Made by a program: the position numbers and the translations under genes. From Alentia gelatinosa (lineage: Eukaryota; Annelida; Polychaeta; Phyllodocida; Polynoidae), in the NCBI GenBank assembly GCA_950022655.1, contig OX465590.1:38267218-38331217 (forward strand): 64,000 nt of DNA, read 5' to 3'. The notes below the pieces were generated by a model. That model ran no database searches, had not been told where the DNA came from, and saw nothing but the letters and a program-made list of their open reading frames with translations. How positions within the stretch are numbered: position 1 is the first letter of the stretch; each line of letters starts with the position of its first letter. Below are positions 10,365-36,870 of this stretch, in pieces.

Positions 10365-10373
10365 CATGTAATT

Positions 10374-10708
10374 TCCGAATTGGACGCCTTGAGCCTTTTA
10401 GCGTTTGAGCCTCCTGTCAGCGTGAAAACGTGGACGCCTTGAGCCTACCCCGTGGACGCCTTGAGCCTACCTCATTTTAGTTCCGATTAGCGGGTTAGGT
10501 AATGGAAAAGGGTTGGGTAAGAGTTAGGGTTGAGTATGACTATAAATCAGTATTTATAAATGCACTTTTCAAAGTTTTTATATCTAGAGGCTCAAGGCTA
10601 CCAAAACGGGGTAGGCTCAAGGCGTCCACAGGGTAGGCTCAAGGCGTCCACAGAAAGGCTCAAGGCGTCCAGGGCTCGAATCGTCCCGGGCTCAAGGCGT
10701 CCATGAAC
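10374..10708. mobile_element. Telomere-core foldback element O
   Basis: 335 bp bounded by the perfect 9-bp direct repeat CATGTAATT (10365-10373 and 10709-10717). The left arm holds three full copies and one partial of GGACGCCTTGAGCCT; the right arm holds four full copies and one partial of the inverse AGGCTCAAGGCGTCC. The core (about 10488-10545) has degenerate TTAGGG (GCGGGTTAGG, GAGTTAGGGTTGAG). No reading frame of note. The target-duplication length fits Mutator-like (9) or hAT-like (8) transposition; that class assignment is inference. Confidence 0.85.
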
Positions 10709-10879
10709 CATGTAATTCTATGGCATATATCATGGTCATGTTCCTTGTATCAATTAGTTATAGATATGTGAGTATACAGCATTATTATATACCCATGACG
10801 TATATATCGTAAATATGCACCGTTTCGCCGTATAACGTATAAATATTATACTGCACCGGGTTCCGTATAGTAGTGTCTT

Positions 10880-11018
10880 GAACACGTTGAACGCACGTTG
10901 CTATGTATACTGAACAGGTTGACGCACGTTGCTATTTATACTGAACACGTTGACGCACGTTGCTATGTGAATTGAACACGTTGACGCACATTGCTATGTG
11001 AATTGAACACATTGTTCA
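10880..11018 (+). repeat. Minisatellite, 31-32 bp unit x4
   Basis: Four consecutive units beginning GAACACGTTGACGCACGTTG and ending CTATGTGAATT or CTATGTATACT, starting at 10880, 10912, 10943 and 10974, then a partial unit. It lies just left of the AA1 foldback hairpin and may be part of the same element. Confidence 0.9.
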
Positions 11019-11116
11019 TAATTGCGGTTGCGCTATCGGTGGATTTAGGAATTCGACGTAATTCTTGTATTTACAGTAAGTTCTGGTTAAATTTCAACAT
11101 TTACGGGTATATTATA

Positions 11117-11270
11117 AATATAGAACGCCCTACCATGCTCGTACATGCTACAAAACTCGATGAACATTAACGGTGAATACGGAACTCGGCGTAAACACCT
11201 CGTTCCGTATTCCCCGTTAATGTTCATCTCATTTTGTAGCATGGACAGCATGGTAAGGACGTTCTATATA
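11117..11270. mobile_element. Family AA foldback hairpin, copy AA1
   Basis: Arms of about 65 bp. The left arm runs TATAGAACGCCCTACCATG, then GTACATGCTACAAAACTCGA, ATTAACGG and AATACGGAAC. The right arm is the mirror image ending CATGGTAAGGACGTTCTATA. The loop TCGGCGTAAACACCTCG nearly matches the FB1 loop at 3 kb. A second copy is at 30481-30633 with the same outer arm but a different inner part. Confidence 0.8.
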
Positions 11271-11695
11271 AATACATTTTGGCCCCCTGGATCTTTCATA
11301 ACTCTTATGCATGTACCTTTACTAAAATCCTAGCTGGGTATTTCTCTCTCTAAAATCATGAGAGATAAAGGCTTCTAAAGTCACCCACCTTAAGAAGAAA
11401 ATGAGCTTGCCATCAACATTCAGAACTTTGTAACTTTGGTGAAATGTTTGAGATCACAATGCCTTTTCTCAGGTCAAGTAGATTAAAAAAATTACAGCCT
11501 TAAAATTTGATTTCAGCATGTATAGAGCTATACCATAAAAGAAGAAGCACAACTGTGTGTAAACCTACAAAAACGAATTGCAGCTTCAAGATTTTCTCTC
11601 CATGAGATTCTCACTCTCGTAACGCTTCACTCTCCATGCTCAGCGTGAAGCCAAAATGTAAAGGGAAAACTGACCAAGCATGTGATGTGTGAGTT
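11271..11695. other. Stretch without a recognised gene
   Basis: Low-copy AT-rich DNA between AA1 and element N1. Nothing supportable. Confidence 0.35.
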
Positions 11696-11704
11696 GTTAC
11701 GAAC

Positions 11705-12292
11705 GAATACTGGAGAACTCGACCCGCAACGAACTCGACCCGTAAACAAAACTCGACCCGAAACTAAATCGACCCGTAAACGGGACTCGACCCGCAACGA
11801 ACTCGACCCGTTTTTCCGGCACTGAACTCGAGTATCTTTTAGATGCAAATATGGATATATATGAACTAGAATAGTTTGGAAGTATTATTACTATTTATAT
11901 TACCTTGGCTTCAAATTTTGCCGAAAATGTGAGTGATAATAAGAGTTTTGAGTGTCCATTCGGCACTGACAAATCTCAAGGTAATAAATGAAACATGCTT
12001 CATTGGAAAATTTAATACATATAACCCTAACCCTATTCCTATCCCTAACCCTAACCCTAATCCTATCCCTATCCCTATCCCTAACCCTAACAGTCACCGT
12101 CCCTAGGAACTAGTCATTCCATTTTTTCATTATTTATAACTGGCTCTATATCACGGGTCGAGTTCCCCAAAACGGGTCGAGTTCTCTTTTCAAATTTACG
12201 GGTCGAGTTCGGGGGTCGAGTTCTCCAAAACGGGTCGAGTTCTCCTGTCAATTACGGGTCGAGTTCGTTTCGGGTCGAGTTCTCCAGTAACC
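11705..12292. mobile_element. Telomere-core foldback element N, copy N1
   Basis: 588 bp, flanked by the perfect 9-bp direct repeat GTTACGAAC (11696-11704 and 12293-12301). Termini GAATACTGGAGAACTCGACC and the inverse of GGTTACTGGAGAACTCGACC agree at 18 of 20 positions. The left arm carries six ACTCGACCCG-type words; the right arm seven inverse CGGGTCGAGTT words. The core at about 12020-12090 is degenerate CCCTAA/CCCTAT. Apparent Arg/Asp-rich frames in the core are translations of this repeat and not genes. Confidence 0.9.
12020..12091 (-). repeat. Telomere-like tract in N1
   Basis: Alternating CCCTAA and CCCTAT hexamers on the + strand, i.e. degenerate TTAGGG on the - strand. It is embedded centrally in a transposable element, so it is interstitial and not a chromosome end. 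Confidence 0.9.
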
Positions 12293-12492
12293 GTTACGAA
12301 CACACAGACTGGTAAATACTTGCCCCGACGCGGTTAGGCGGGAGTGGTATATTTACCAGTTAGTGAGTAGGTGACACTTCACAGATTCCATGCCTGGTCT
12401 GGTTTATCTTTATTATACACCTTTAAATGTTTTACATTAACAAGAAATCACCAGTAATCGCCTTTTGAAGTACAATTTGGGCACGCAGAGCT

Positions 12493-12802
12493 GGGACCTG
12501 TTTCACTAGTTTCGTGACATGTCTAGATGGCGTCTAGATGGTGTGTCCGGTTTCATAAGAACTAGACATTAGACTTTGTTTTGTCCGTTCTTGCTTGCAC
12601 TGTTGGTGCTGCTTTTCATATCTGTCTAACACTTTTGTCACGAAACTAGTGAAACAGGTCCCATGATGTGTAGATTTGTCTAATTCTTTTGTTTGGGGTC
12701 TGTCTTTTTCTAAGGACAGCTACTTGTGTTGTCACGAAACTAGACAACCCCAATGTCTGTATGGTGTCACAGACATGTCACGAAACTAGTAAAACAGGTC
12801 CC
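12493..12802. mobile_element. Family M TIR element, copy M1
   Basis: Starts GGGACCTGTTTCACTAGTTT and ends with the inverse (CTAGTAAAACAGGTCCC). An extra inverse terminus lies internally at 12643-12662, so a 170-bp derivative (12493-12662) appears joined to a half element. Interior words are CTAGATGGCGTCTAGATGG and GTCCGTTCTTGCTTGCACTG. Confidence 0.8.
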
Positions 12803-13414
12803 TGGTCCGTTTATACTGATACAGTCCTGCTACACCTATGCAGATTTGGTTCCCCCTACCCCACTCCTTTGTTGATTTGCAATAACATTGGATTATTTCC
12901 TTTATAATCCTACCGACATTGTTATTTCTATTCCTTACTTTTTTGCTATACTTTTGTTCTAGATACGCATTCATGTTTCGACGCCTGCCGTGGCAAAGCA
13001 GGCCGTATACATGTCAGACTGGGCCGTCCATGATATACTTTTTACTACTGTGAAATATTTTTTATTTACGACATATACTTAGCAGAGGTCAGTAACCGTA
13101 AGACAGACGTGCACTGGTGCATTATAAAACATAGTTCTACCTGTGGCCTGATTGGTACTTGGTAGAATCCTATCGTTGTTACTACATCAGTAAATGACAG
13201 GGTGATTGATATTGATCTTTCATAACTTAATGGTTCTTTCCGCGAGTTTAGTAACATTTTGGAGATGTTGTCTTTGACAAGCACTGTGCAGATATTACGA
13301 AAATGTTGTTTGTTTTTGTTTGTTTTCTTGGTTTTTCTTCGAGCCAGAAAAAAAATTAGGGACGGCGTAAAATCACTTCCCAGTTTAAGAGCTCTTCAAT
13401 GCACACGTAGTATA
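12803..13414. other. Stretch without a recognised gene
   Basis: Low-copy sequence with a GTTTGTTTTTG-type T-rich patch near 13305-13335. Nothing supportable. Confidence 0.35.
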
Positions 13415-13698
13415 AGGCCTGGTGTCCACCTACTACGATAGAAATTTAGACCTACCGATATGGCACCGATGCATAAAGTAAATATCGGAGACATATTGGG
13501 AAGGTGCAAAATCGTAGACATATGTCTAGACATGCCAATAAATCATGCATTGTATGGGATTTTTACCAGTGTCTAATCTCAGAAACATGGTCAGCTGCCC
13601 CAATAATAGGTGACCTTCCGACGCGATTTTGATTTTTTATCAGGAGGTTCATCGTAGACCATATCGGAGCCATATCATAGTAGATGGACGCTGGGCAT
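13415..13698 (+). mobile_element. Family B MITE, copy B2
   Basis: 284 bp. It starts AGGCCTGGTGTCCACCTACT, ends AGTAGATGGACGCTGGGCAT, and is flanked by TA on both sides. The interior matches the other B copies. Confidence 0.85.
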
Positions 13699-14009
13699 TA
13701 CAATGAACAATATACAATTGACATAGACATTCCTAGGGCTTTACGTAGACTGCTATAGAGTTTCATCTAATTATTAGAGTGTTTTCTATTAGAATGTACA
13801 TTGGTCTGGTCATTTGACTCAGCTTGAACTTCTTCATTTGGCTGGCTTAACGGGCATGCTGAATTTATAATGTAGTTTCTCTCTCAGTTAAAGTAGCATA
13901 CATTGCTACATTGGCAGAACCAAAAAATCTTGTAAGGATTGTGATTAAAGTAACAGCATAGAATATTGAAAGATAATAATACCCAAGCATGAATGAATGT
14001 TGGGATCTA

Positions 14010-14293
14010 AGGCCTGGCGTCCACCTACTACGATAGGAAATTAGACCTACCGATATGGCACCGATATAAAAAGCAAATATTGGTGACATATCGGGAAGGT
14101 GGAAAATCGTAGACAAATGTCTCAACAAGCCAATCCACCACGCATCGTTAGGGTTTTTTGTCAGTGTCTAATTGCAGAAGCATGGTCGACTGCCCCGATA
14201 TTAGGTGACCTCCTGACCCGATTTTGATTTTTAATCGGGAGGTGCATCGTAGACCATATCGGAGCCATATCGTAGTAGGTGGACGCCGGGCCT
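14010..14293 (+). mobile_element. Family B MITE, copy B3
   Basis: 284 bp, from AGGCCTGGCGTCCACCTACT to the inverse ending GACGCCGGGCCT. It forms the left part of segmental duplication 1; its partner is the truncated copy at 18955. Confidence 0.85.
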
Positions 14294-14470
14294 AAAAAAA
14301 TAAATGCACGTTATTGATTATACGTAGACCTACGAGATCTAAATATATTTCAGAGGTGTTAAATATTGCTGATATGAGCAAAAAACATAAAGTAAAGTGA
14401 ATCCTGGATATCATGTATAAGGTCTGAGGATAGCTTGAGGTGACTTGACTTTCCCGCCCCCGCACTACAC

Positions 14471-15083
14471 TATAGGCCGTGCAACTATATTGCTATACAA
14501 AGTATACAGGTTTGCAAAAGGTACCATATTGAATCAGAGATTATGGGCTTTATTGCCATATATATTTTCAAGTTATTTAGATATTTTATCTTTTTTAATT
14601 TTTAACGTTTTTTTCTTTGAAATCATCATTAAAGTACGGCAAAATGTTTGAATTCGAAATGTTTGAAGATTCCATAAAATTCCATATGGAAGCAAAATCC
14701 AAACACAGTTTAATTAAGTAGAGATTTCCTTTACACTCATTTTGATGCCTTAACATTTTTGTTGTACTCACAGTAGAAATTAAAATGGACTGTTTTGTTA
14801 TCAAAATAGAAAAGTAGCAAAAAGCCATTTTTTGTGATATCTGCCATATGTCAAAGCACTGCCATGGTAGGCAGAAAATGGAGAAGAAAGGCTTGCTTGA
14901 TAATGATGCAATATTTTTATATTCTAATTTCAGACAATGCTTTTCCTTTAGTTATCATTTACAAACAAATAATTACTTAGACTAATTAGATATGCAGCAC
15001 AGGTCAATCTATAAGATTTTTTAAGAAAACACTATTTAAATCCAGACTCCACCATAGTCGCTAATATGCCTTCCTGATCTATA
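14471..15083. other. Insert in duplication 1, left copy, of unknown type
   Basis: Absent from the matching point of the right copy (CACTACACTAGTACACTTTACC region, 19350). It starts at TATAGGCCGTGCAAC and abuts Y1. AT-rich with no recognised gene or terminal repeat. It may be an unrelated insertion or sequence deleted from the other copy. Confidence 0.4.
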
Positions 15084-15449
15084 CGGCATATAGCCTATGA
15101 TCCATGGGCGCCGCTATGACGCCCCCTGAGTAGGTATTCTTCACTAAAGGAGGTGAAAAAGTAGCTGTTCTTCACGAATGGAGGTGCAAAAAAGAAGTGA
15201 GTGATATTAGGGAAATGTGACTTTTCTTGCCTTGCTCACATATTCAAATAAAGTGTTCCATGTGAAAAACATCATGTCCTGGGTTTTAGCATTATATCTT
15301 CCTGCTCTGGGATCTGTGTAGAGAGTCAAGGGAACCATGGTAAAACATTGAAAGGCAGCTGAAATTCAAAAGAACAAAGTGCCAGAATACAGGTTTTGTC
15401 CCCCGACCACCTAGTGACTGCTTCATGAACTAACAATGGCTCTGCCCCC
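15084..15449 (+). mobile_element. Element Y, copy Y1
   Basis: 366 bp, flanked by TATA at 15080-15083 and 15450-15453. It starts CGGCATATAGCCTATGATCC and ends ACAATGGCTCTGCCCCC. The copy at 49339 has the same ends, the same TATA flanks and a demonstrable empty site at 42.54 kb. Non-coding; no clear TIR. Confidence 0.75.
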
Positions 15450-15863
15450 TATAGTATACTTTACCTCCTCTGTCATTAACCTCACGCCATGAGTAATGAG
15501 ATTCTGTCAAATACACACCTCAATTCAGTCATCAAATGCCATGAAGACCTTGGCGACCTCACCATATATATGTCTTTTGTTTTGCACAAAAAAGGATTAG
15601 ATAACGACCTTTGCGTAACGGATACCTTGACATTTCCGGTTAAACCTGAATATGATTCATTGATAGTTATTACCAAATATGTTATGCATAAACTTTGGCA
15701 ATGCATGAATACCAACCTTATAAGAAGCTGAACGTTGTTTCAATGTAAATAAAAGACTTTAAAGAACTCGCTGTAAACACTCACTACACCTAGGGGTGTA
15801 ATCATTGCGTACCTATTGCGTAGTATGCCATGTAGTTTTGTACCTACATACATACATTTAAAA

Positions 15864-16087
15864 GTAAACTCTCGAGATGAAAATGGCTTGGTCCGTACTC
15901 CACGCCAAGCTTCATGAATTTTTCCGGAGTCAAACAAGGTGGAGTACAGACCAAGTTATTTTAATCGAGTGGGTTTCACCCAGTATGACATTATTAATTG
16001 GTGAAATAAATCATCCAATTTGCCATTGAATAAAGGGTACACCACCTTTACGATCATGGAGTATGAGTTCCTAACGTTCAGATTATG
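15864..16087 (-). mobile_element. Family E-b modular foldback element, copy E4
   Basis: The hairpin (15864-15977) has arms GTAAACTCTCGAGATGAAAA, then GGCTTGGTCCGTACTCC, mirrored and ending TAATCGAGTGGGTTTC. The TIR module (15978-16087) carries CCATTGAATAAAGGGTACAC and GAGTATGAGTTCCTAACG, its outer end being a worn GGGGTGAGATAA. It corresponds to E5 in the right copy of duplication 1. Confidence 0.7.
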
Positions 16088-16253
16088 GAGAAAAATACCA
16101 GGATAACGAATCAGAGATCAGCAATTATTCACCTGTGAAAATAGTTCTGGCTGCAGAGGATAATTCTGACAGGTGTCAAACATGGCAATTTACCTATTCA
16201 TATTTTGGTGTGTGTTTGCATATTTCCTAATATCATAAAGTCATGAAGATTCT

Positions 16254-16417
16254 GTAGGATAAATTCTAAACCGAACTCGAGTTAGCCTGGTCAAGGTTTA
16301 TACTACTTCGGCCAGGTCTGCTACTCACTGCGCTCAGTTATCGCTTCGCGCAGTAATACACAACCCGTCTGTCGTGGCATAAACCTTGATCAGGCTAACT
16401 CTCGTTCAGTTTCTACT
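16254..16417 (+). mobile_element. Family C hairpin, copy C4
   Basis: GTAGGATAAATTCTAAACC followed by CGAACTCGAGTTAG on the left, mirrored by GGCTAACTCTCGTTCAGTTTC on the right. The inner hairpin is CTGCGCTCAGTTATCGC / GCTTCGCGCAG. Only the hairpin module and a few bases of the TIR module are present. Confidence 0.7.
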
Positions 16418-17415
16418 AAGTACGCCTTACAAATAATGCATTTTCATGTGTATCTGGTCCTCTGAGTGTTACTCAGTGTGACTTTTTTCGTGCCTCTTGC
16501 CTCTCCTGTAGGTAGCAACTTTGAGGCATATTTGCACTTATGAAGTAAATTCAGATATTCACATCGTAGAACGAATTGTCGGAGACCACCATTAAGATAT
16601 AAATGTAAAACTGTAGATACATTTCTAGTCAACTGCTTACTTTTACTCTCATACAATTGCATTAATGCATAATCTCTCACATTCAAAAATGTAACTTTAT
16701 TTCATATCGCATTGTCCGATTCTGTGATACATATTTAAATAAGGAAACTGTGAGTTGGAGAGAATGCTAGTTTATTACTAATAAGTAAGGCACGCACAAC
16801 GCATGTTGAGTTTACACAAAACATTAATCAGTAGACATGGTCTAATGCTATCTATAACATGTCACTTGCATAATATATCTAAGCAATTATAACAGTCTGT
16901 GTTATAGCTGGTTGAAAGGCGCTAAGGCGCAAGTCCACATATCATCCCTGTGGGAGTAACGAAGGATATATGCAGAAAATTTCTAATTAGGTAGATGGGG
17001 ATATAAGATGGTAAGCGTGCTAGCTGCGCAGGCTTGGGTCGGTGAGTGCATTCTAGCAGCATGGCGTTGTCCCATTACCTTAAGTCCATATAAGGAATAG
17101 AGTAGACCGAGAAGCCAATGACTGCATTCGCAGCAAACCCCAACCTTCACCCTGACCTCCTTACATGATATTTTCTAGCGCCTTGGGAGGGCTATACAGT
17201 CGAGAGTTGACCTCGAATCTTAGGGGCCACAACCACCCTCCTAGTCCTGTTTATATGGCACAAGCTGTCATCAGATATTACCCAGCCATCACAACCACTG
17301 TCACATTGTCGCCACCACCAAGTCTCCAGCCACCTCTGTAGATGCGTCCCGCACACCATATATGCGCAGCTGTTCGTACAGTCATCTTCACAACCATCTG
17401 CCCATCCATACCCAA
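16418..17415. other. Stretch without a recognised gene
   Basis: Low-copy DNA. The segment at 17.10-17.25 kb (AATGACTGCATTCGCAGCAA, CACCCTGACCTCCTT) resembles 47.95-48.06 kb, indicating a dispersed repeat of about 120 bp. No host exon is supported. Confidence 0.35.
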
Positions 17416-17555
17416 GAATACTGAAGAATTCGACCCATAACAGACTCGCCCCGTAACGAACTCGACCCGTTTCAAGAACTCGACCCGAAATGAACTCGAC
17501 CCGTTTTTAAACTTCTCGACTCAAGTGTGAATAAATACTACATTTAGTAGTAAGT

Positions 17556-18852
17556 TGTTTTTTGTTTTTTTGTTGTTTTTTTTTTAAACTCATTTATTGG
17601 GTCGAGAGATATACATATACTCCGTATCCAGACTCGGCTGGGCCGGTCTTCCGTCTGGTCCCATGATACAGTATCAGCAATTCCGTGTGATCAGACATAC
17701 AAAAATTACAAATGTCTTACCATCAGAGATGTATATAAGGATGAACAATGATGAACAACAAGACCAGCCAATTCTTGCAAGATACAGTCAGACGGGAAGG
17801 GAAAAGCAGAAATTGAATCCCATTTCAACAGGAATCTGAATAAACTATCCTAAATGGAACGTGGGGGTTTAAGTTCCAATACGTACATGCACATATACGC
17901 CTACATACATCTTTTCATCTCAAGTCATTTTTCTTGTGTGAGAATCGAACTATGTGTTGAACACCATGGGTTTTGAGAAGTCGAATTGCCGACTTGGTTG
18001 CAACGCAAGCCAAGATCGAGTTAACCTAATTAAACAACAACATAAATAACATTGTTGAGTACTAGAAGCAATAGCGGTATTTAAGGTAATTTTTTATTGA
18101 GATGTTGTACTCGGTTGCAACGCAAGCCAAGCATTATTGAAATGTACCTCAGTGGTAGGGGTGTAATACCTATTCTAAATAGCGCAGTTGTAACACAATC
18201 TGCAGACTTTAGTTTAGGCAGTGAAGTCTCTAACTATAAAGAACTCATCCAATTATTGAAAACAGTTAGGGTAATCCTTTTTTAGAGTAATTTTGAATGT
18301 TTTCCGGTCCGTGATCTCAGTGTACACTGATTTCAGGTTATTCCAGTTCTTAATAGCCGAAACCAGAAAACAGTTTTCGAAAACCGAGCTTTTTAAGGGT
18401 GGTAGTAATAAACGTAATCCTACATTTCTCCTTGTGGGTAGTATTCTCTCATCAAGAAGATTTGGTTCCCCAGTTAGTGCAAAAGCATAAAATAACGAGT
18501 GCAGTTGCCTTTGATTTGATAGAAAAAGGACTTTTGATAAGGAATGAGTGTCATTTGTATTAAGTCGCTGATGAGGGCCAAGCTTTATGTTATGGCATAC
18601 TCTTAAGGCTTGGTTTTGTAACAACTGAAGGCTATTATTAGCATAGTTTACATTTATGTCAGCTATGTGGTCGCAGTAGTCGAAATATGGAAGGATAGTA
18701 GATTTATAAATAGTAATTGCGGTATCAGTGTCAATCAGGTGTCTTATTTTGGTTAACAGGTAAATTTTGTCTGAAATTATGGAGGAAATATTGCGTATAT
18801 GTTCTGCGTATTTCAGTTTATCATCAATTGTTAGGCCTAAGTAATTGAAGCT
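17556..18852 (-). mobile_element. 5'-truncated non-LTR retrotransposon (LINE)
   Basis: About 1.3 kb on the - strand: the reading frame end at 18253, an untranslated 3' region, then an A-rich tail (T-rich on the + strand, 17556-17586). TAAGT flanks both ends (17551-17555 and 18853-18857), the probable target duplication. N3 shows the unoccupied site (AGTAAGGATGTTATC). The 3' UTR contains GGTTGCAACGCAAGCCAAG twice (about 17996 and 18113). Confidence 0.85.
18253..18852 (-). pseudogene. Reverse transcriptase C-terminal fragment of a LINE
   Basis: About 200 codons open to a stop at 18253. Residues start within the RT thumb-side motif NYLGLTIDDKLKYAEHI, followed by YKSTILPYFDYCDHIAD and AIKNWNNLKSVYTEITDR, an arrangement typical of the region after the RT palm in CR1/Jockey-group LINEs. 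The catalytic YxDD box, endonuclease and 5' part are absent through 5' truncation. An upstream Met-containing extension to 18906 comes from the host element N2 and is not LINE protein. The copy cannot move by itself. Confidence 0.85.
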
Positions 18853-18954
18853 TAAGTATGTTATCTTAGTTTCAAATTTGGTCCTCTCTGGGGAAGATTT
18901 CTTCAAAGCGGGTCAAGTTCTCCTGACAACTACGGGTCGAGTTCGTTTTTATTT

Positions 18955-19181
18955 ACAAAAAGCAAATATTGGTGACATATCGGGAATGTGCAATATGATA
19001 GACATATGTCTGGACATGCCAATCCACCACGCATTGTATGGGGTTTTTATCGGTGTCCAATCGCAGAAACATGGTCAACTACCCCGATATTAGGTGATCT
19101 TCGACGTGATTTAAATTTTTTATCGGGAGGTGCATCATAGACCACATCGGAGCCATATCCTAGTAGGTGGACGCCGGGCCT
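18955..19181 (+). mobile_element. Family B MITE, copy B4, 5'-truncated
   Basis: Starts abruptly at ACAAAAAGCAAATATTGG and runs to the right TIR GTAGGTGGACGCCGGGCC. The left 60 bp is missing, replaced by the end of N2, so the junction at about 18951 is a rearrangement breakpoint. Confidence 0.8.
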
Positions 19182-19742
19182 AAAAAGATAAATGCATGTT
19201 ATTGATTATACATAGACCTATGAGATCTAAATATATTTCAGAGGTGATAAATACTGCTGATATGAACAAAAAACATAAAGTAAAGTGAATCCTGGATATC
19301 ATGTATAAGGTCTGAGGATAGCTTGAAGTGACTTGACTTTCCCACCCCGCACTACACTAGTACACTTTACCTCCTCGGTCATTAACCTCACGCCATGAGT
19401 AATGAGATTCTGTCAAATACACACTTCAGTTCAGGCTTCAACGGCCTTGAAAACCTTATCGAACTCACGATATGACTATGTTTTGCACAAAAAAAGGATC
19501 AGATAACGACCTTTGCGTAACGGATACTTTGACATTTCCGGTTAAACCTGAATATGATTCATTGATAGTTATTATCATATACCTATGCATAAACTCTGGC
19601 AATGCATGTATACCAACCTTATAAGAGGCTGAGCGTTGTCTCGGTATGAATAAAATACTTTATAAACTCACTTTACATATTTACTACACCTAGGGGTGAA
19701 ATCATTGCATACCTATTGTGTAGTACGCCATGTAGTTTTGTA

Positions 19743-20544: not shown

Positions 20545-20569
20545 TTTGTACCTACATACATATTTAGAA

Positions 20570-20828
20570 GTAAACCCTCGAGATAAAATTAGCTTGGTCG
20601 GTACTCCACACGAAGCTTCGTCAATTACTTCGTAGACAAACTCAGTAGAGTATGGACCAAGTGATTTTCGGCTAGTGGGTTTCTGATTATATCTCACCCC
20701 TTACATAATATTATCAGTTAATAAGATAATATCTAATTGGCCATTGAGTATTGGGCACACTACCTTCACGACCGTGGAGTATGAGTTCCTAATGTTAAGC
20801 TTATAGAGAAAGATACCGGGGTGAGATA
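20570..20828 (-). mobile_element. Family E-b modular foldback element, copy E5
   Basis: The hairpin (20570-20684) has arms GTAAACCCTCGAGATAAAA / GCTAGTGGGTTTC with GCTTGGTCGGTACTCC inside. The TIR module (20690-20828) lies between ATATCTCACCCC and GGGGTGAGATAAT and carries GGCCATTGAGTATTGGG and CTAATGTTAAGCTTATAG. It is better preserved than E4. Confidence 0.8.
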
Positions 20829-21119: not shown

Positions 21120-21535
21120 AGAACTCGACCCGTAACAAACTCGACCCGTTTTAAAACTTCTCGACTCAAATGTGAATAAATAATACATTTAATAGTAAGG
21201 ATGTTATCTTATTTTCAAATTTGGTCCTCTCTAGGGAAGAAAACAAACAGAAAATCATTCCCCTATTAAGGCCCAAACCTAACCATTACCCTAACCCTTT
21301 CCCTGTCCCTAACCTTAACCCTAAACCTAAACATAACTGAGCTTGTTTACTATATCTCTTGGTTTATTTGTCCAAAAGCTAACTAGACAGACCTTTACTT
21401 CTATATGAAAGTGTCTTTTTCATAAGTATCTGAACCGGGTCGAGGTCTCCAATCGATTTCTCCAAATCGGGTCGAGTTCTCCTGAAAACTATGGGTCGAG
21501 TTCGTTTCAGGTCGAGTTCTCCAGTAACCAAACTC
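21120..21535. mobile_element. Element N, copy N3
   Basis: Left arm of two ACTCGACCCG words (the terminal GTTACTGGA is missing or diverged), then CTTCTCGACTCAAATGTG and a CCCTAA-type core (about 21270-21333). The right arm has four GGGTCGAGTTCTCC-type words and ends CTCCAGTAACC. About 415 bp, non-coding. Confidence 0.8.
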
Positions 21536-23693: not shown

Positions 23694-23978
23694 AGCCTGG
23701 CGTCCACCTACTACGATATGGCTCCGATATGGTCTACGATGCACCTCAGAATAAAAAAATCTAAATCGCGTCGGAAGGTCACCTAATATCAGGGCAGTTG
23801 ACCACGTCTCTGCGATTAGGCACTGAAAAAAATACCCTTATGATGTGTGATGGATTGGCATGTCTAGACATGTGTCTACGATTTTCACCTTCCCGATATG
23901 TCTCCGATATTTGCATTTTTGTATCGGTGCCATATTGGTAGGTCTAAATTTCTATCGTAGTAGGTGGACGCCAGGCCT
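23694..23978 (-). mobile_element. Family B MITE, copy B5
   Basis: 285 bp in inverse orientation: AGCCTGGCGTCCACCTACTA on the left, GTAGTAGGTGGACGCCAGGC then CT on the right, TA on both flanks. The interior is the reverse complement of B1-B3. Confidence 0.85.
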
Positions 23979-25440: not shown

Positions 25441-25459
25441 ACTTACCGACATAATACTT

Positions 25460-26938: not shown

Positions 26939-26940
26939 TA

Positions 26941-27488: not shown

Positions 27489-27490
27489 TC

Positions 27491-27791
27491 AAGCCCAATG
27501 CCCATCTACCGATTAAGGGTTGAACGATTAGCTCACAAATTGTATAGGAGTCAGTGACCTTGTCGCAGGCAAGTTACGTAACACTTCGCTCGACATCGAA
27601 CAGAGGGATCGGTGGGTATTATTCCTAAGCAAATCAGTCTACTAATCGGTGGCTTACCCTTGTCTAGCTGTCCTACATCTACCCACTACGGCTGATTCCG
27701 TTAGGATGCCTCGCCTGAGACAAATTACCGTATGTCTGTTGCCGACAAAGGTACATGAATATTCCGAAATCGGTATATGGGCATTGGGCTT
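27491..27791 (-). mobile_element. Family A MITE, copy A4
   Basis: About 300 bp from AAGCCCAATGCCCATCTACC (27491) to the inverse GGTATATGGGCATTGGGCTT. It directly abuts Q1. The interior has CGATTAAGGGTTGAACGATT and GTCTAGCTGTCCTACATCTA. Confidence 0.8.
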
Positions 27792-27815
27792 AACCAAATA
27801 CCAGATTACAGATAA

Positions 27816-28100
27816 TATGGAGAAACCAAACAAGAGTTAGTCGTGTTGTTCTTTATCGCATGATGGCAAGATTTCGTAATATGTGATCTTGCCAGAGTGC
27901 GATGAACAATAACATGACTAACTCGAGTTTGGTTTAGAATTTATCCTACCCCGCCCGTCTAAATTACTTCTACATTAACAATTGACGTCATTTGTCAAGT
28001 GTACCTCCACTAGAGCGATATTTTTCATTTTTCTGAACTCCAGACCGAATACAGTGACCCAATGTTAAGCCTATGGAGTTTTTTATTAGGGGTAGGATAA
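27816..28100 (-). mobile_element. Family C modular foldback element, copy C2
   Basis: Hairpin (27816-27940) TATGGAGAAACCAAACAAG / CTAACTCGAGTTTGG with a shortened inner loop. The TIR module runs from AATTTATCCTACCCCGCCC to GGGGTAGGATAA and holds ACGTCATTTGTCAAGTG and CCCAATGTTAAGCCTATGG. Confidence 0.8.
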
Positions 28101-28502
28101 CGGCGAGGGTAGCTTTACCTTAATATCATCACTCACGCCTCTTTCCGCGATTTAAATGACGTTGTTGTTGCTGAAATCCATATCAACTGGGAAACGTTTA
28201 TAAACTAATTAGATACACGAAGATTGTGATTAGAAGAAGAAAAGTGGGATGAGAACAAATCCACCCACTCACCCTATCATTTGACTCTATGTACCTATTC
28301 AGTCCTATTCCTCTGGCTCAATATTCACACAACATTTATGTGGTGTTTATGCTGCAGCATATAATAAATGTGTCATGACCACACCATTTGCTTTACAAAA
28401 CGAGTCATTTTACATTAATTACATGACAGCACAACATGATTAATACTACAACAACAGGTCACAGTACAATCGAATACTGCACCAGTGTGCATTGGAAGCC
28501 TG
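28101..28502. other. Stretch without a recognised gene
   Basis: Low-copy sequence between C2 and T. Nothing supportable. Confidence 0.35.
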
Positions 28503-29711
28503 TGGCCCGTTGGATAATCGACATATCATAGAAATTGTCCTCCAATCAATATAATTATACAACCAATATCGTTGTATAAGCATTTTGGTCTTAGCGCTAA
28601 GACAGTTCAAGGATACGATCTTATGTAGACTTTGAAATGTTGTAGCATAAATTAATGGTACAACTCCCCTTTGTGCTCCAAATTGTCCTAGGTCGTCTAC
28701 AACGCTCCTACATCAAGGACACCTATAGGGGTGTCGTACATTTGATTTGTTTTTAAAATACAGCATAATAAGTTGTGATTTTGATAGTGATCACTGGTGT
28801 GTTACAGAATGGCTGGTCATGGTGGAAGGGAAAGGACTGTCCATCATTTGATGGCAGAAAAGAGCCTTTGGAGAAGCTGGATGATCGTAGGACATGTGGC
28901 CAGTTGAATAATCCAAGATATGTCGTAGAAATTGTCCCTTGTTTATGGGGCCTCAGGCTTAGATTCCAGAGACTTGTCCTGGGAGCTGTTGAACAAACTA
29001 CGAACGAGGAGAAAGTCTCCCAGAATCGTCCTTGGGGCCATAGTGTTGTATAAAATAACGGGCTGTAAGCAATAGATATTTTTACAATAAGAGTAATCAA
29101 AACCTCTTACAAGGCGTTGTATACAAATATGTTCATCTATATGATATCTTCTGTCTTGTCATACAACTCTAAATGGAAAGAAATCGTCCAGGATGTTGTT
29201 TTATCGTAAAACTGGATGAGGTTTAATCTTGGCCACCGTATTCCACGACTGGAGTTTGGCATAGTGATTTCATGAGGCGAAGCCGAGTGAAGTCCGGAGC
29301 CAAAACTTCAGGAGTGGAATGCGCTGGCCAAGATTAAACGAATCAGGTTTTGATTTTATCCTATCCCGTCTCCTCGATTTTGGAATATTACGTGATAACA
29401 ATGCTGTATGCCACTAGTGGCATATAAAACTCCGTATGCCAGTCAGCGTGGCATACGGAAACCCAATGTTAAGCCTATGGGATTTTATATTAGGGGTAGA
29501 ATAAATCGTTTGAATTATCGTATTGTCCAGACCAGCACCAGAATCGAACGAACTTTATTCAACAGCCCCTGGCAGGTGAGACAATTTCAAAGAGGGATTA
29601 TACTGTCTACCGGGAATCTAATTTATAGAAAATATTTGGCGTAGATTGTCCCAGACCTCCTTCAACTTACCGTCCTGCTCTACGATACATCCTGGATTAT
29701 TCAACGGGCCA
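28503..29711. mobile_element. Family T TIR element with nested D1
   Basis: Outer ends TGGCCCGTTGGATAATCGA and the inverse TCCTGGATTATTCAACGGGC. An additional internal terminus (TGGCCAGTTGAATAATCCAA, 28900) suggests a rearranged or double copy. D1 is inserted at 29202-29505. Frames at 28775-29053 on both strands overlap these repeat words and are not considered genes. Confidence 0.6.
29202..29505 (-). mobile_element. Family D modular foldback element, copy D1
   Basis: The hairpin module starts TATCGTAAAACTGGATGAG; the arm GTTTAATCTTGGCC pairs with GGCCAAGATTAAACG. An inner stem around GGAGTTTGGCATAGTGA has a GAGGCGAAGCCGAG loop. The TIR module carries paired dyads (ATGCCACTAGTGGCAT; CCGTATGCCAGTCAGCGTGG) and AATGTTAAGCCTATGGG, ending TTAGGGGTAGAATAAA. 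Confidence 0.85.
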
Positions 29712-29782
29712 CCACGTGTTTGGCGCTGTCCTTTGTCTTGTAGGAGCGATTTAAACCGGAATTTATGACAACTGTGTTAACC

Positions 29783-30140
29783 CTTTCTTTACTAATGATG
29801 CCACTATGACATTCCCCAGCCACGGGCGAATGATGCCATATGGCACTACCAGCCATGGGCGAATGATGCCAAATGGCTTCATTTGATATTTTACAATTTA
29901 GGCTCATAATTCATGAAATACTCAATGCTATAACACCATTGTTACACAAGATATGTATCTAGATATGATCCATATAATTATTGATAAAAAAAATGAAATG
30001 GTTGCCATAGTGCCACAAATCATGTCATATGACCATTTCTGAAATTTGGTGCTCGCCCTTACTGGCCATTCATGTGAGCTGACATCGCCCCCTACACGAT
30101 GCAGCACAAAAATCGTTCGTAAGGATTGGGTTAATGGGAG
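29783..30140. mobile_element. Possible TTAA-flanked element BB1
   Basis: TTAACCCTTTCTTTACTAATG at the left and CGTAAGGATTGGGTTAA at the right give short CCC.../...GGG ends next to TTAA, as in piggyBac-like elements. It contains two and a half 33-bp units beginning GATGCCATATGGCACTACCA (29798-29882), kin to the array at 53343. No transposase is visible; a non-autonomous element by inference. Confidence 0.45.
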
Positions 30141-30480
30141 GGGTGTGAAGTATTCACTGCCAATGTACCATTCCACATTTTTAGAAAAATATCCTTTCTC
30201 TATATTCGAGTTCCTGATATTTATAGCTATGAATTCTATACATGCAATAAAACCTACATTCCATTGAGAATCCAGAAGTGACATTTACTAATTACGCATG
30301 CAGTATATTTGATCATTACGTACTGCTGCTCCCAATGCAGTGTAAACTGTATACTGAACCCTGTGCAGTACACTGTTATACTGCACATGTTGAAACATCG
30401 GCAGTGTGTGGGCTTTCACATAGACATGTCTTCTATGCCAATATATGATAAGGTTTTATTAGTTTTGGGTATATAATAAA

Positions 30481-30633
30481 TATATAACGACCTACCTTGC
30501 ACCTTGTACATGCTACAAAACTCGATGGGAATTGATGCTTTTACAGAACCCAGCCTGGGGCCTCGTTCAGTAGAAAGCAACAATTCCCCATCTTGTTTTG
30601 TAGCATGTACAGCATGGTCATGTCGTTCTATAT
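30481..30633. mobile_element. Family AA foldback hairpin, copy AA2
   Basis: Outer arms TATAACGACCTACC, then TACATGCTACAAAACTCGAT, mirror ATCTTGTTTTGTAGCATG and CATGGTCATGTCGTTCTATA. The inner part differs from AA1 (GGGAATTGATGCTTTTACAG; GGGGCCTCGTTCAGTAG). Left of it, 30300-30400 has GCAGTATA-type dyads related to the 2.5 kb and 10.85 kb regions. Confidence 0.75.
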
Positions 30634-30645
30634 AACCACGCACCA

Positions 30646-31187
30646 GGGACCTGTTTCACTAGTTTTGTGACATGGCTGTGACACCATACAGGCATTGGGG
30701 TTGTCTAGTTTCGTGATAACACAAGTAGCTGCCCTTAGGAAAAGACAGACCCCAAACATGGTATGTCCGGTTTAATAAGAATTAGACAAATCTACCCATC
30801 ATAGGATTCACACATCATTTCGGGTTTATGATATTGTCACATTATGTCTACAGTTTTTTTTAAAGGAATTGAGATTAACTTTTACTTACTGTTTACGCGG
30901 ATCGACCAATACTCTCTGTTATATAACGTGACTTCGTTTTGTCCGTTCTTGCTTGCACTGTAGCTGCCGCTTTTCATCTCAGACAGACCCCAAACATAAG
31001 AATTAGACAAATCTACATGTCATGGACCTGTTTCACTTGTTTCGTGACAAAAGGGTTAGACAGACATGAAAAGCGGCAACTACAGTGCAAGCAAGAACGG
31101 ACAAAGTCTAATGTATAGTTCTTATGAAACCGGACACACCATCTAGACGCCATCTAGACATGTCACGAGACTAGTGAAACAGGTCCC
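30646..31187. mobile_element. Family M TIR element, copy M3
   Basis: 542 bp from GGGACCTGTTTCACTAGTTT to the inverse ACTAGTGAAACAGGTCCC. Two inverted copies of GCAAGAACGGACAAA and GAAAAGCGGCAACTACAGTG words lie inside, and an extra terminus GGACCTGTTTCACTTGTTTC is at 31024. It may be two half-elements fused. Confidence 0.8.
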
Positions 31188-32003
31188 TGATGATTCTTCT
31201 CCGCTCGTGAAAGACCACGCAGTATAGCTGAGGTCTTAGAAGCGAATTCTGCCGAGAAAAACCCCTGAGGATTTACTGACGAATTAGGAGACTTGATTAA
31301 TCGTAAAAAACATTTCACATTAGCCTCGGCACGACGTTCTGCCGTCACAGCCTGGCCCTTGAGGTCGCCCCTCGGCTGTGGGGGGTGCTTAACGATGTAT
31401 TGAATTATTAGTGAGGCTCAGGGGGGTTGGAATTAGCAGTAGGCTTTAGCAGCATCCAACGGGCTGGACTCGTTCGCCCTCTTATTAACCCTGTTGAATA
31501 TATGTGATACCTCTAGATGTATCTCTTTACAAAAGAAAGATGTGTGCAGGGAGCGCGGGGGTTAAGGTAAGAGAAGGTGAATAACTAGTTTGGCAACCAA
31601 CCCCTGTCTATGATATAGGGGTTGGTTGGGTTAAATCCCACATGGGATCACTCGGGGTGCGCCTCAAGCCAAATACTTTTGTTCTATGTATACTCTCAAA
31701 GCAGACATATGTAATATAAAATATATTCATAGCTGAAATTTTTTTTACAAAGAAACCATGATTTGTAGTCATTATATTTTAAGAAAATACACAGGAAAAG
31801 AAATAGGAAAATGGAAAATTTGCTTGGAGGTTATGAATCAGCACACTCTCCAAGCAGTACGAAAAATCTGGTAGGAGAGTAACAAACAGGTCCCGCTACT
31901 GCGTCAAGGCAGCCGCTTATTTAACCCGACCAGAGCTAACTTTGTGTAGCTCTGGTTGCCAGTGTAGCGCGTAACATGGTCGTTAACCTTTTACCATTAA
32001 TGC
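31188..32003. other. Stretch without a recognised gene
   Basis: Includes locally GC-richer sequence at 31.19-31.45 kb. Frames of about 60 codons have no recognised domain. Nothing supportable. Confidence 0.35.
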
Positions 32004-32597
32004 TTTTATCTCACCCTGGTATTTTTCCCTATAGACTTAAGATAGGGACCTCATACCCAACGGCCATTGGGTATTTAGAATAAATACTCAATGGGGGATT
32101 ATGTCACAAAGGTTAGCCCATTAGTTAATGTGAAGGGTGAGATATATTCAGAAACCTATTCAAGTTTAAGATCAGAGCTCGATCCCATCTCGTTTGAATC
32201 GCTATGTTATTCATGTGGCTTCGCCTTGTGAATTACTACGAGATTCATACTCGATGGGATGTATACACAATATTGGCTGGTTTCACATACAAGCGGCCGT
32301 ATTCTCCGAGGAGTTGACGCTAAGTCAACTCCGAGGAGCATACAACTGCTTTTATCTGAAACCAGTCTATATTGCATTTATTATCCACCTTTTCTGTGCA
32401 AGTGGCATGTCGATATCAGTTCATTTAAGTTATGCACTATTTTCCCGTACGCACTATTTTTCTGTATGCGCCACCCGAAGCATACAACATATCCATATGC
32501 GCCGGGTATGTCCATACAAACTCCCTATGTGTTTTCTATGGACACTTTGTATTAGGTGGATAATAAAAGCTATGACCCTAAACTTTCATAGGTTTCC
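32004..32597 (+). mobile_element. Family E modular foldback element, copy E2, split by G
   Basis: TIR module from TTTTATCTCACCCTGG through CCAACGGCCATTGGGTATTT to AGGGTGAGATATATTC. The hairpin left arm has GAAACCTATTCAAG and AGAGCTCGATCCCATCTCG, with the GTGGCTTCGCCTTG loop. The right arm starts GATTCATACTCGATGGGAT, is interrupted by element G, then resumes GACCCTAAACTTTCATAGG and TTTCCTCT. Confidence 0.8.
32262..32568 (-). mobile_element. Element G: foldback plus TIR module inserted as one unit
   Basis: About 307 bp: border TATACACAATATTGGCTGG, then a hairpin whose stem is GCGGCCGTATTCTCCGAGG plus a dyad AGTTGACGCTAAGTCAACTC, closing at GAAACCAG. Next a TIR module from TTTATTATCCACC to GGTGGATAATAAAA with AGCATACAACATATCC inside. 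It lies wholly within the right arm of E2. A derivative is at 61893-62054. Confidence 0.8.
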
Positions 32598-32814
32598 TCT
32601 GTAAGAGCTGCTCGTGTGGGGAGTGCAAAGAATGCCTGAGGGCAGTCTCGTGGGTAGTGAAAATGATGGATGACGCCATTAGGCCATTTCAGTCTGTGAA
32701 TGGTCAGGCTGTGTGGTATATAATACCATAATATACAGGTGGTACTATGGTATAGAGACACTCTTATAGCACACAGACACCCCACAGACGCCTACTTGAC
32801 GCCTACATGAGCTT

Positions 32815-33133
32815 AAAGCCGGATGCCCATCTACCGATTTAGGGTTGAACGATTAGTTCCCAAATCGTATAGGAGTTGGTCACCTTGTCGCAGGCAAATT
32901 ACGTAACCCCTCGCTCGATCCGCACACTGATAAAATCGGTGTATGGTCCACTAATCGCTGGGGGAGGGCAAAAACCAAAGAAACTGAGTGTTCACTAATC
33001 GCTGGGTAGCCTTGCCTAGCTGTCCTACATCTACTGACTCCATTAGGATGGCTCGGCTGAGACAAATTACCCTCCATTTGTCAGCGACAAACGTACATAA
33101 ATGTTGAGAAATCGGTAGATGGGCATATGGCTT
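32815..33133 (-). mobile_element. Family A MITE, copy A5
   Basis: AAAGCCGGATGCCCATCTAC at the left and the inverse CGGTAGATGGGCATATGGC then TTT at the right, about 320 bp, TA-flanked. It directly abuts B6. Confidence 0.8.
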
Positions 33134-33135
33134 TA

Positions 33136-33417
33136 GGGCTGGTGTGCATCTACTACGATAGAAATGTAGACCTACCGATATGGCACCGATACAAAAAGCA
33201 AATATCGGAGACATATCGGGAAGGTGCAAAATCGTAGACAAATGTCTAGACATGCCAATCCACCATGCATTGTATGGGTTTTTTTCGGTGCCTAATCATC
33301 GAAACGTGGTCAACTGCCCCGATATTAGGTGACCCTCCGACGCCATTTTGATTTCCTATCTGGTGGTGCATCGTAGACCATATCAGTGCCATATCGTAGT
33401 AGGTGGACACCGAGCCT
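33136..33417 (+). mobile_element. Family B MITE, copy B6
   Basis: 282 bp, from AGGGCTGGTGTGCATCTACT to the inverse GTAGTAGGTGGACACCGAGC then CT. The interior is standard for the family. Confidence 0.8.
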
Positions 33418-33782
33418 AAGCAGACCTTTGCCTGATGTCTGATTGTCTAGACACCAGTCTATCTGCCTCACACACACAAGAAACAAACAATCAAGATAAT
33501 CTGGAGTGTTGTCCCCACACTGTCCAGTCATTATTTACAAGGGGTCTTACAAGTGTCCCATTAACCGGGTAAAGAGGCATTCCGTACCGAACGTACCGAA
33601 ATAGCTGTTCTGTTAAGCGGGGTTTCCCATTGAGCAAGATGTTCCCTTAATCAGGGTTAAAGTAAACTCTTAATAGAGGATAAAATGGCCGTTCCAAGTA
33701 AATTTGCCCCATGAGAGGGGTGTCCTGTCTAGCAGGGTTTTACTTTATGTCCACATATGCACACTACCTACATCACTACTTT

Positions 33783-34143
33783 AAGCTCAATACACATCTA
33801 CTGATTTCGGAGTGTTGATGTACCTTTGTCGGCGACAAAGGAACAGTAATGTGTCTATGGTGGGGCATCCTAAAAAAGTCGGCCCTAGTCGGTAGATGCA
33901 GTACAGCTAGGCAAGGGTCAGCCAGCGATCTTTGAGATGTTCTTTTGTCGCCGACGAATTGTCGTTCAATGTTCCTAACATGTTGATGCATACAGTCGCC
34001 AACAACGGAACGTTGGTAAATAGCCCCTGATTGGGCTGTCGACAAGCGCCAAGGGCTTACGTAATTTGCCTGCAGTTCACCGACTCCTATACAATTTGGG
34101 AACTAATCGTATAACCCTGAATCGGTAGATGTGTATTGGGCTT
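33783..34143 (+). mobile_element. Family A MITE, copy A6
   Basis: About 360 bp: AAGCTCAATACACATCTACT to the inverse GGTAGATGTGTATTGGGCTT. The central word AACATGTTGATGCATA is a decayed form of the family palindrome. Confidence 0.8.
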
Positions 34144-34778
34144 TAGGACCATAACCGTTTTGAAGATGGAGGTGAGGATAATACTTCTCCACTCTTACCT
34201 TTCTTCTTCCTTCCAGTACCTGAGCCGGAAATGACGTCACGTACACTGCACCGCGTCCCCTTATGACGTCATGTCCGCCATTACCGACACCCGGATGACC
34301 TTTACCTGGCTCCTCTCGCCAAACCAATTCTGGTACTTTTTCTGGGGTTTCTTGTACATTCTTTTTCATTTAGCCTGGTTCGTGAATTTTCGTGATCCCC
34401 TTCTTCACTGGGGAAAACACGGAGATGGGGTTAATGACATTTAGTTAGGGATAAGAAAGGAACCGAAGCCATTGAATTCTGATTTTCGGTTTTCATCAGG
34501 AAATTATTTACTGAACTAATACCGGGACTGCGCTGTGCACGTAACTGTGTCCAATTGGTTTGAAAGTGGACATTTAATTCTGTGAATTTTTAAGGATTCA
34601 GCTTTTCTTTTGTGGCTTGTCAAATTGTTTTCAATTGATTGCATTTAGACAGGGATACTATAGTTGTCTATGAAACCAAGCAGCCAACCGTATCTGAGGT
34701 ATTTGCTTAGGAGTTTGTCATGCTTATCGCTCCAGAGAGATAACTTCAACCCAGAGGGAAGAGGGAGTTTTGCACCTG
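34144..34778. other. Stretch without a recognised gene
   Basis: An 88-codon frame on the - strand (34369 to 34103) overlaps the A6 end and has no recognised domain. Nothing else supportable. Confidence 0.35.
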
Positions 34779-35182
34779 AGGCCCAATACACATCTACCAA
34801 TTCAGGATTGAACGATTAGTTTCCAAATCGTATAGGAGTTGGTGAGCTTGTCCCAGGAGAATTACGTAATACCTCGGCCCGTGTCGGCCACCCAATCAAG
34901 CGCCATTTACCAACATTCCGTTGTCGGCAACTAGATTTATCAACATGTTGATAAACTTTTGGCCACAGCTTTAGGAAAATAGAAACCACAACTTGTCAGC
35001 AACAAAATATCATCTGAAGGAGGTGGTTCACTAATCAATGCCTGACCCTTGCCTAGCTGTGTTACATCTACCGACTACGGCCGACTCCGTTAGGATGCCT
35101 CACCTGAGACAAATAACTGTCTATTTGTTGCCGAAAAAGGTACATAAATGTTCCGAAATCGATACATGTGTATTTGGCTTTA
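34779..35182 (-). mobile_element. Family A MITE, copy A7
   Basis: About 404 bp: GAGGCCCAATACACATCTAC to the inverse CGATACATGTGTATTTGGC then TTTA. It holds the perfect palindrome TTTATCAACATGTTGATAAA at 34936-34955. Confidence 0.8.
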
Positions 35183-35528
35183 GCTAGTTGCAAGGCATTT
35201 GAGGTGAGCGCGATTCTACGGCGCCTCAGAGGTGGTTGCGGCGTGGTGCTGTAGGCCTACTATTAGACTGGCCTCAGTCCCTGTGTCTTACCCCTCCACC
35301 CCTTCTGAGTGACACAGGGACTGGTCTCATCCGTAATCGGCCGTGTAGACTGGCGCGATTTTGCGCCACACTCCCCAAGCAGAGGTCTGGCTACTGGTCA
35401 GGATATCTGCTGGGAGATTGATACCCTCTCACTTTGATCTCAATCGAGACATAGTCAGGAGCAGGCAAAATATATTGCTATGACAGCCAGGGAACTGGAG
35501 GAGGGGAGGGGGGAGGGGTAGAGGGAGG

Positions 35529-36057
35529 GGTACACGGTCATCTCGGCCCCATCGGCATCTCGGACCCCTTTTTGTGCGGTCATCTCGGCCCCCTCATGGC
35601 CGCGTTTCACACTCCCGCCTTCGTGGGTTCAGGGAAGGGTTAATGTTAGGGAAAGGGTTAGGTTTAGGGATAGGGTTAGGGTTAGGGATAGGGATAGGGT
35701 TAGGGTTAGCGTTAAGGTTTGGGATAGGGTTAAGGTTTGGGATAGGGTTAAGGTTTGGGATAGGGTTAGGGATAGGGTTTGGGTCAGGTTTAGGGTTAAT
35801 GGTTTGGGATAGGGTTATCACACATGTTTTGTAAGATATGCTTTTGTTTTGTAAGATTTTTTATTGCGGATAATAGACAAATGATATAATACAGCAAAGC
35901 TAAGAATCCGTATTTTGGGTAAGTAATCACATTGGAAGGCATTTCCCGTTTTCGCGCATGAAGGCTAGAAAGCGGGGGGGGGGGGGCCGAGGTGCCGATG
36001 GGTCCGAGATGCCGTAAGGGGTCCGAGATGCCAAAGGGGCCGAGACGTCCGGGAACC
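35529..36057. mobile_element. Telomere-core foldback element P
   Basis: 529 bp flanked by the 8-bp direct repeat GAGGGAGG (35521-35528 and 36058-36065). Termini GGTACACGGTCATCTCGGCC and the inverse of GGTTCCCGGACGTCTCGGCC are similar. The left arm has three ATCTCGGNCCCC words, the right arm four inverse words. The core (35634-35815) is a long degenerate TTAGGG/TAGGGA tract, followed by AT-rich DNA and a G-run (about 35974-35986). The inverted partner near 37930 shows the site without P. The flank is purine-rich, so the 8-bp match is less certain than in N1 and O. Confidence 0.8.
35634..35815 (+). repeat. Telomere-like tract in P
   Basis: About 180 bp of GGGTTA/GGGATA hexamers and variants. 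The long open frames on both strands (Gly/Leu/Ile on +, Pro/Asn on -) are translations of this repeat. Confidence 0.9.
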
Positions 36058-36466
36058 GAGGGAGGTATAGGGTAACAGGGAGTGGCTTGGGGTTATGAAC
36101 AGCAGATTCTGGTCAGAGTGGACAAGTCTTTCATTCATGGGCCAGTCAGAGATGGATATATTCTTTATTCTGATTGTATTTCATGATTTAATGAATGTTC
36201 ATAATCAAAGACTTGAGCAAGTCTAGCCTACTATCTGCAGTTGGCTGCTGGTGGGGGCCACCGTCCCCGTTACCTCCATTGAACAAATTGTTATGAGCTA
36301 TTAATAGCTCTAGTGAGGTATTTATGCGATCCACCCGTGATTTGCGATGTTTTACAAGCGGGAGACTTACCTCCTTTTCTCTTCTTAGAGAGTCTAGTAG
36401 TCCTGGTAGGCTCTGTAGACTTTCCCATTTTCAGCATGGATATGATGGTAAATTTAGTGTATTTGG

Positions 36467-36868: not shown

Positions 36869-36870
36869 AC

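Follow-up and report, generated by a model that had tools for sequence, protein, structure and literature searches.

The stretch analysed here, the window, covers 64 kb of the 1.23-Gb genome of the polynoid annelid Alentia gelatinosa (C12:38267218-38331217) and contains three short elements, named O, N1 and P, which are members of three dispersed transposon families with precise ends and target site duplications (TSDs) of 8 or 9 bp. Each is built from two inverted arms of tandem short words surrounding a telomere-like core, and two further copies of the N family, N2 and N3, lie in the same window (Table 1). An 11-mer scan detected seven inverted word clusters (O, N1, N2, N3, P, Q and R), whereas five Markov controls had none. 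Five of the seven are made of N, O or P words, the exceptions being Q and R. Re-examination of the window located the word clusters, inverted arms, cores and flanking repeats as claimed by an earlier reading of the letters alone (hereafter the sequence-only reading), including its count of three to seven words per arm. Its element O is confirmed, but the family ends give 10375-10709 and not 10374-10708, and the flanking repeat that it listed as CATGTAATT is the same target duplication, shifted. Similarly, N3 repeats the words and the tract of N1 as proposed, but it ends at 21529 and carries no TSD because its left arm is truncated.

The architecture is that of foldback-type terminal inverted repeat transposons: the short words stand in tandem in inverted arms that can fold back, and the dispersed copies are bordered by target duplications, with an empty site for P only. 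O, the only element folded as a single strand, gave -90.5 kcal/mol (z -10.2). When every 36-bp segment was scored against (TTAGGG)n, only four places in the window reached at least 24/36, each coinciding with a core (O 25, N1 33, N3 31, P 34). Since the maxima of 40 Markov control windows reached 24 once and 25 once, the O tract is weak by itself, which does not apply to the tracts of N1, N3 and P. Likewise, 39 of the 46 near-matches to GGGTTAGGGTTA in the 64 kb belong to the same four cores and seven occur elsewhere, with 5.5 expected in all. A strict G-quadruplex motif is present in the window copies of N1, N3 and P and absent from O.

Table 1. Features of the window, the N, O and P elements first (positions counted from the first base of the window)
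Feature	Position	Strand	Remarks
O left TSD	10366..10374		ATGTAATTT; 9 bp, one mismatch to right copy
Element O	10375..10709	+	family ends GGGAATT followed by GGACG... and GGTTCAT followed by GGACG...; window copy left CCGAATT; arms of three and six words, two of them degenerate
O core	10491..10539	+	short, telomere-like, ~45 bp
O right TSD	10710..10718		ATGTAATTC
N1 left TSD	11696..11704		GTTACGAAC
Element N1	11705..12292	+	termini GAATACT (left) and GGTTACT (right, read inward); 6 + 7 words GAACTCGACCCG, second arm inverted
N1 array	12013..12105	-	telomere-like, TTAGGG/ATAGGG on the minus strand
N1 right TSD	12293..12301		GTTACGAAC
Element N2	17416..18944	+	N-word copy interrupted by an insert; without right terminus and telomere tract
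Element N3	21121..21529	+	N-family copy
N3 tract	21267..21343	-	telomere-like
P left TSD	35521..35528		GAGGGAGG
Element P	35529..36057	+	termini GGTACAC and GGTTCCC; 3 + 4 words CATCTCGG(C/A)CCC
P array	35623..35809	+	telomere-like
P right TSD	36058..36065		GAGGGAGG
P-free (empty) site	37753..38057	-	opposite arm of the palindrome that P entered
Repeated short elements	6162-6437, 14016-14287, 23695-23976, 57572-57833		inverted ends GGCGTCCACCTACTACGATA or near
AAG microsatellite	40368-41194		~830 bp
Q	47293-48999 (47417-48883 in word-cluster scan)		larger element; inverted clusters of word ACGACAAGGC, ends GGGGGCGTCCACC; no telomere tract
R	52961-53526 (52968-53527 in word-cluster scan)		34-bp tandem repeats, units with palindrome GATGCCTTAAGGCATC
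Tyrosine-recombinase retroelement	58350-61388	-	Phage_integrase, Pfam PF00589; DIRS-like by eye

Genomic copies of the three families

The genome yielded at least 343 matches to N1, at least 134 to O and at least 73 to P, and 40 candidates were scored per query. For N, 38 copies chosen from the match list of N1 (a query containing the tract) were fetched and joined to the window copy. Both ends were present in 33 of these 39 sequences, with GAATACT on the left (GGATACT once) and GGTTACT on the right in nearly every case. Their TSDs comprised 21 exact duplications of 8 bp, five of 8 bp with one mismatch, one exact duplication of 9 bp (the window N1) and two of 9 bp with one mismatch; the four copies without TSD are L137, L150, L156 and L154, the apparent match of the last being an internal arm word. 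The telomere-like array was found, in one orientation, in all 33 two-ended copies, as recovered with the tract-bearing query. It varies in length from 90 to 4414 bp (715 units in L147) and mixes TTAGGG with plentiful ATAGGG units, the rest of the element being 93.4-99.2% identical to the consensus (31 of the 33 copies, array masked, gaps excluded). In 350 kb of fetched sequence, GAATACNGGA occurs at 49 sites, of which 46 are N copies, two are without repeated words (L187, L196) and one is L269, discussed below. At L130, L142 and L152 the N copies stand in tandem, so that the tract measured there spans the composite; the outermost flanks share one TSD, as if the composite had moved or been duplicated after insertion. 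The insert of N2 (17556-18912) contains an open reading frame (ORF; 18253-18912, minus strand) that is retroelement-like by eye and has no Pfam match.

The 30 O loci include 29 two-ended copies, 26 of them 333-336 bp long. Exact TSDs of 8 and 9 bp were found at 12 and eight loci, respectively, together with four of 9 bp and one of 8 bp with one mismatch; four loci had none and one was without ends. This mixture is real, because the different registers are anchored at both ends. In the consensus, the core is GGGTTAGGGTTAGAAAAGGGTTGGGTAAGGGTTAGGGTT, with columns that stay conserved across the 30-locus alignment; a stricter core pattern was matched in 13 of 29 copies, and two other copies reached a telomere score of 23.

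P was sampled twice. The first sample took 30 of 42 long matches, among which 23 have an exact 8-bp TSD (20 at the projected ends and three with the end shifted by one base), three an 8-bp TSD with one mismatch, one a 9-bp TSD with one mismatch and three none. The array is present in 30/30 in one orientation and spans 176-234 bp; the window copy departs further from pure TTAGGG than the consensus does. The second sample used an array-free query and took, from 40 full-length matches, the first 20 by rank that were new to the first list. Again the array is present in 20/20, on the same strand and over 72-334 bp, which brings the total to 50/50 P copies; the TSDs were eight exact of 8 bp, four of 8 bp with one mismatch and three absent, and in five copies no left end was found. 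One of the latter, L252, shows a second tract on the opposite strand in the stretch fetched. In the window, P lies in one arm of an imperfect palindrome of 2.7 kb (35402-38057), the arms of which differ by 538 bp, compared with 537 bp expected for P plus one duplication.

The ends and the 8-9-bp duplications described by the sequence-only reading therefore hold on genome copies of all three families. That reading would have been contradicted by a majority of copies with non-telomeric cores, and the data go against such a majority for P, with the tract-free query, and for N, with the tract in the query, while the O core is conserved but short.

Relatedness of ends and tracts

The three elements had been taken as unrelated, a view that their termini do not sustain. 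When the right ends of the three families are aligned starting at the terminus, 12 of 22 columns are identical (GGTTnnnGGAnnnCTnGnnCC), a level not attained in any of 200,000 triple shuffles. Taken by pairs, the probabilities are 3e-5 to 2.2e-4 for the right ends and 0.003 to 0.012 for the left ends, and equally good background 22-mers outside the elements of the window number between 0 and 17 of 120,632, depending on the pair. All ends follow a common order, in which an asymmetric 7-bp terminus precedes GGA (GGT at the left end of P) and tandem words of ~12-15 bp. On the basis of these alignments, the three families are related at their ends.

As regards the tracts, neither core edges nor unit order made a common descent among N, O and P evident. 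Unit shuffles were positive for some pairs but weaker with end units fixed (six pairs, uncorrected: ~0.01 for N3/P, 0.04 in one of two directions for N1/N3 and at least 0.059 for the others), and common tract descent was rejected as unproven. In unit order, the O and N3 tracts resemble the P consensus no more closely than they resemble N-array chunks, of which 13/50 and 7/50, respectively, score as well. With the GGTT end as reference, the tract of N runs in the other orientation from those of O and P. Outside the tract, the core flanks of N1, N3, O and P show no convincing homology, and one weak match (probability 0.017 among many tests) was taken as chance. Among the explanations originally offered for the recurrent core, namely a function, a shared origin with fast-evolving arms or a seeding mechanism, our results favour a shared origin of the ends; a test for common descent of the tracts did not demonstrate it.

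Among 16 chromosome ends fetched, C4 right and C5 left are telomeric throughout (TTAGGG/ATAGGG counts of 83/0 and 82/0), three are partly telomeric and 11 have no TTAGGG. The element arrays, with their mixed TTAGGG and ATAGGG units, differ from genuine chromosome telomere DNA made of a uniform host unit. One chromosome end (L240; C9, first 500 bases) bears a subtelomeric-looking repeat, TCTGAACCCTAACG. In the flanks of fetched copies (38 loci, 128.6 kb, with L122 and L168 overlapping the window and each other), 17 telomere-like segments score at least 25/36; 14 are inside inverted N or O arms, and the other three are L129, beside an N arm, and L183 and L197, at exactly 25.

Candidate transposase and origin of the cores

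MULE (Mutator-like element) domains above cut-off were found at seven genome places, six of which were examined. At L269, a MULE exon is accompanied by a FLYWCH-like exon, and an arm is present ~0.5 kb past the end of the MULE frame. This arm starts with GAATACA followed by GGACGCCCCG and has three exact words, thus joining the N grammar (GAATACT followed by GGA) to an O-like word; none of the five other loci has an N, O or P arm. At L268, tandem words TATGGGTCACTC (2169-2235) near the MULE match constitute another possible clustered-word arm. Pattern searches for relatives in viral_contigs returned 120 stretches with a pattern judged too loose to mean anything, and the others found none, except one locus.

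Elements of a comparable design are known. The sea urchin TU elements of Liebermann et al. (1983) reportedly have arms of ~15-bp inverted tandem repeats and 8-bp TSDs, and are not known to carry a telomere-like core. The closest published plan is that of Tm1, a Mutator/Phantom foldback element of Meloidogyne with asymmetric 7-bp motifs A1 (CGGTTAA) and A2 (CCTACCC), GGA, a ~14-bp tandem motif C (CGATTCAGTATCGC), 8-10-bp TSDs and a Phantom transposase (PMC3169594). N, O and P share with it the 7-bp asymmetric ends, the GGA, a varying number of tandem words in inverted arms, TSDs within its size range, small non-autonomous copies and an empty site. They do not belong to the Tm1 family proper, as their termini and words differ in sequence by eye. 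Moreover, the cores reported for Tm1 are a histone hairpin, a MITE-like (miniature inverted-repeat transposable element) sequence or the transposase, in contrast to the telomere-like cores found here, and 'telomer' has no occurrence in the main text of PMC3169594. In the available description of Tetris from Drosophila virilis, a non-autonomous foldback element with 8-10-bp TSDs tied to emerging satellite DNA (PMC4079207), such a core is not reported either. The TSD mixture of O resembles the 8- or 9-bp TSDs of the mosquito MULE Muta1, which is a coding element (PMC5225508), and the 8 or 9 bp of N, O and P fall within the 8-11 bp given for Mutator (PMC6446971). It is already established that some Phantom and Rehavkus elements, which are coding MULEs unlike N, O and P, hold minisatellites, not said in the passages seen to be of telomere motif, and that a foldback feeds a satellite (PMC6446971, PMC4079207). 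The literature searched, seen in part and with most subscription journals and Repbase outside it, contains no description of several related families that all keep a telomere-motif array as their core (PMC3169594, PMC4079207, PMC6446971, PMC5225508, PMC6947457 and PMC9071541 included), which is not proof of novelty.

We consider that N, O and P are probably non-autonomous Phantom-like foldback families with related ends, in which the telomere-motif array is a cargo that expands and contracts. The Tm1 plan, the Muta1 TSDs and the MULE/FLYWCH-like gene with an arm at L269 suggest that the most likely agent of their movement is a Mutator transposase of the FLYWCH/Phantom kind, acting in trans. 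This enzyme would cut at the termini and insert with 8- or 9-bp staggers, and the tandem arm words probably serve as multiple transposase sites. Its fixed orientation and variable length indicate that the core behaves as cargo, which would be copied with the element and change in length by slippage, unequal exchange or post-excision repair; the elements would thereby spread interstitial telomere-like DNA. A more ambitious version seems distinctly improbable. In it, the array would be a working component that a Phantom-like lineage took on to serve replication, repair or the recruitment of proteins and retained while arms diverged and cores were replaced, and the lineage would in this way have become a main source of the interstitial telomere-like arrays of the genome.

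Several observations weigh against a Phantom-like origin with an array as cargo. The TSDs of Tm1 are mostly of 9 bp, those of N and P mostly of 8 bp. At position 2 of the N TSDs, T is the preferred base (a count made partly on both strands), which would be compatible with hAT or P elements too. At L269, the FLYWCH match is below threshold (17.5 versus a Pfam cut-off of 23.6 bits), no second arm was found in the next 4.6 kb and there is no telomere tract (best 21/36). At the six MULE loci examined, N, O and P words gave only one match, with two mismatches (L264), and the 25/36 telomere score at L265 lies only inside a tandem TTCGGGCTCA repeat. The search for an autonomous relative, suggested by the sequence-only reading, has provided one locus with a single arm of like grammar and no autonomous copy with two arms. 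Finally, tract-less N copies, of which N2 is one, may be undercounted since the N query contained the tract.

Another superfamily producing 8-bp (or 8-9-bp) TSDs, such as hAT, P (with Galileo-like foldbacks), Merlin or Zisupton, might move the elements, the likeness to Tm1 being convergent. Foldback arms did arise in several superfamilies (PMC3169594, PMC4079207), and both the predominance of 8-bp TSDs in N and P and the missing autonomous partner would suit this option. It is fairly unlikely in our opinion. The order of a 7-bp end, GGA and a tandem motif matches Tm1. In addition, hAT elements have strict 8-bp TSDs, and the ends of both hAT and P elements start with CA. Such a start is absent here (GAATACT, GGTTACT and others), and the 9-bp TSDs of O (12, versus 13 of 8 bp) and of the window N1 are unlike those of strict 8-bp superfamilies.

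It is conceivable, if rather unlikely, that each family captured telomeric DNA independently, either from a telomerase-healed broken end or by formation of foldbacks around existing interstitial telomeric sites. The tracts speak for such captures through their orientation and through unit orders of O and N3 that are no nearer to the P consensus than to N-array chunks, but the relatedness of the ends and the ATAGGG-rich N arrays, when the two fully telomeric ends have TTAGGG without ATAGGG, speak for the opposite. Very unlikely, in our view, is a core with a job of its own, kept by selection, that would bind telomere-repeat proteins or form a G-quadruplex to aid excision, replication or copy-number gain. 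The constancy of the core in the sampled P and two-ended N copies, its presence in both N1 and N3, the core surroundings of which align no better than chance, and the strict G-quadruplex motifs of the window N1, N3 and P are in line with such a role. However, N2 has no core, that of O is short and devoid of the strict motif, N arrays vary ~50-fold in length, and retention among copies of one ancestor requires no selection.

Chromosome fusion, telomerase repair and slippage are the usual explanations for interstitial telomeric sequences. In the present case, the vehicle that disperses telomere-like DNA is a mobile element; at one locus the array reaches 4.4 kb, and most copies are marked by their own TSD. 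The elements offer a testable source for such sequences and call for caution before internal TTAGGG tracts are interpreted as relics of chromosome fusion. They also constitute a natural experiment on tandem-array growth at many insertion sites.

Other repeats of the window

Of the two clusters outside the N, O and P words, R was dropped as a word-cluster element, as it corresponds to a palindromic tandem repeat. Q-like words were also found at L267, on the same stretch as a MULE ORF of 310 amino acids. The remaining features are a retroelement, a microsatellite and a set of repeated short elements, listed in Table 1.

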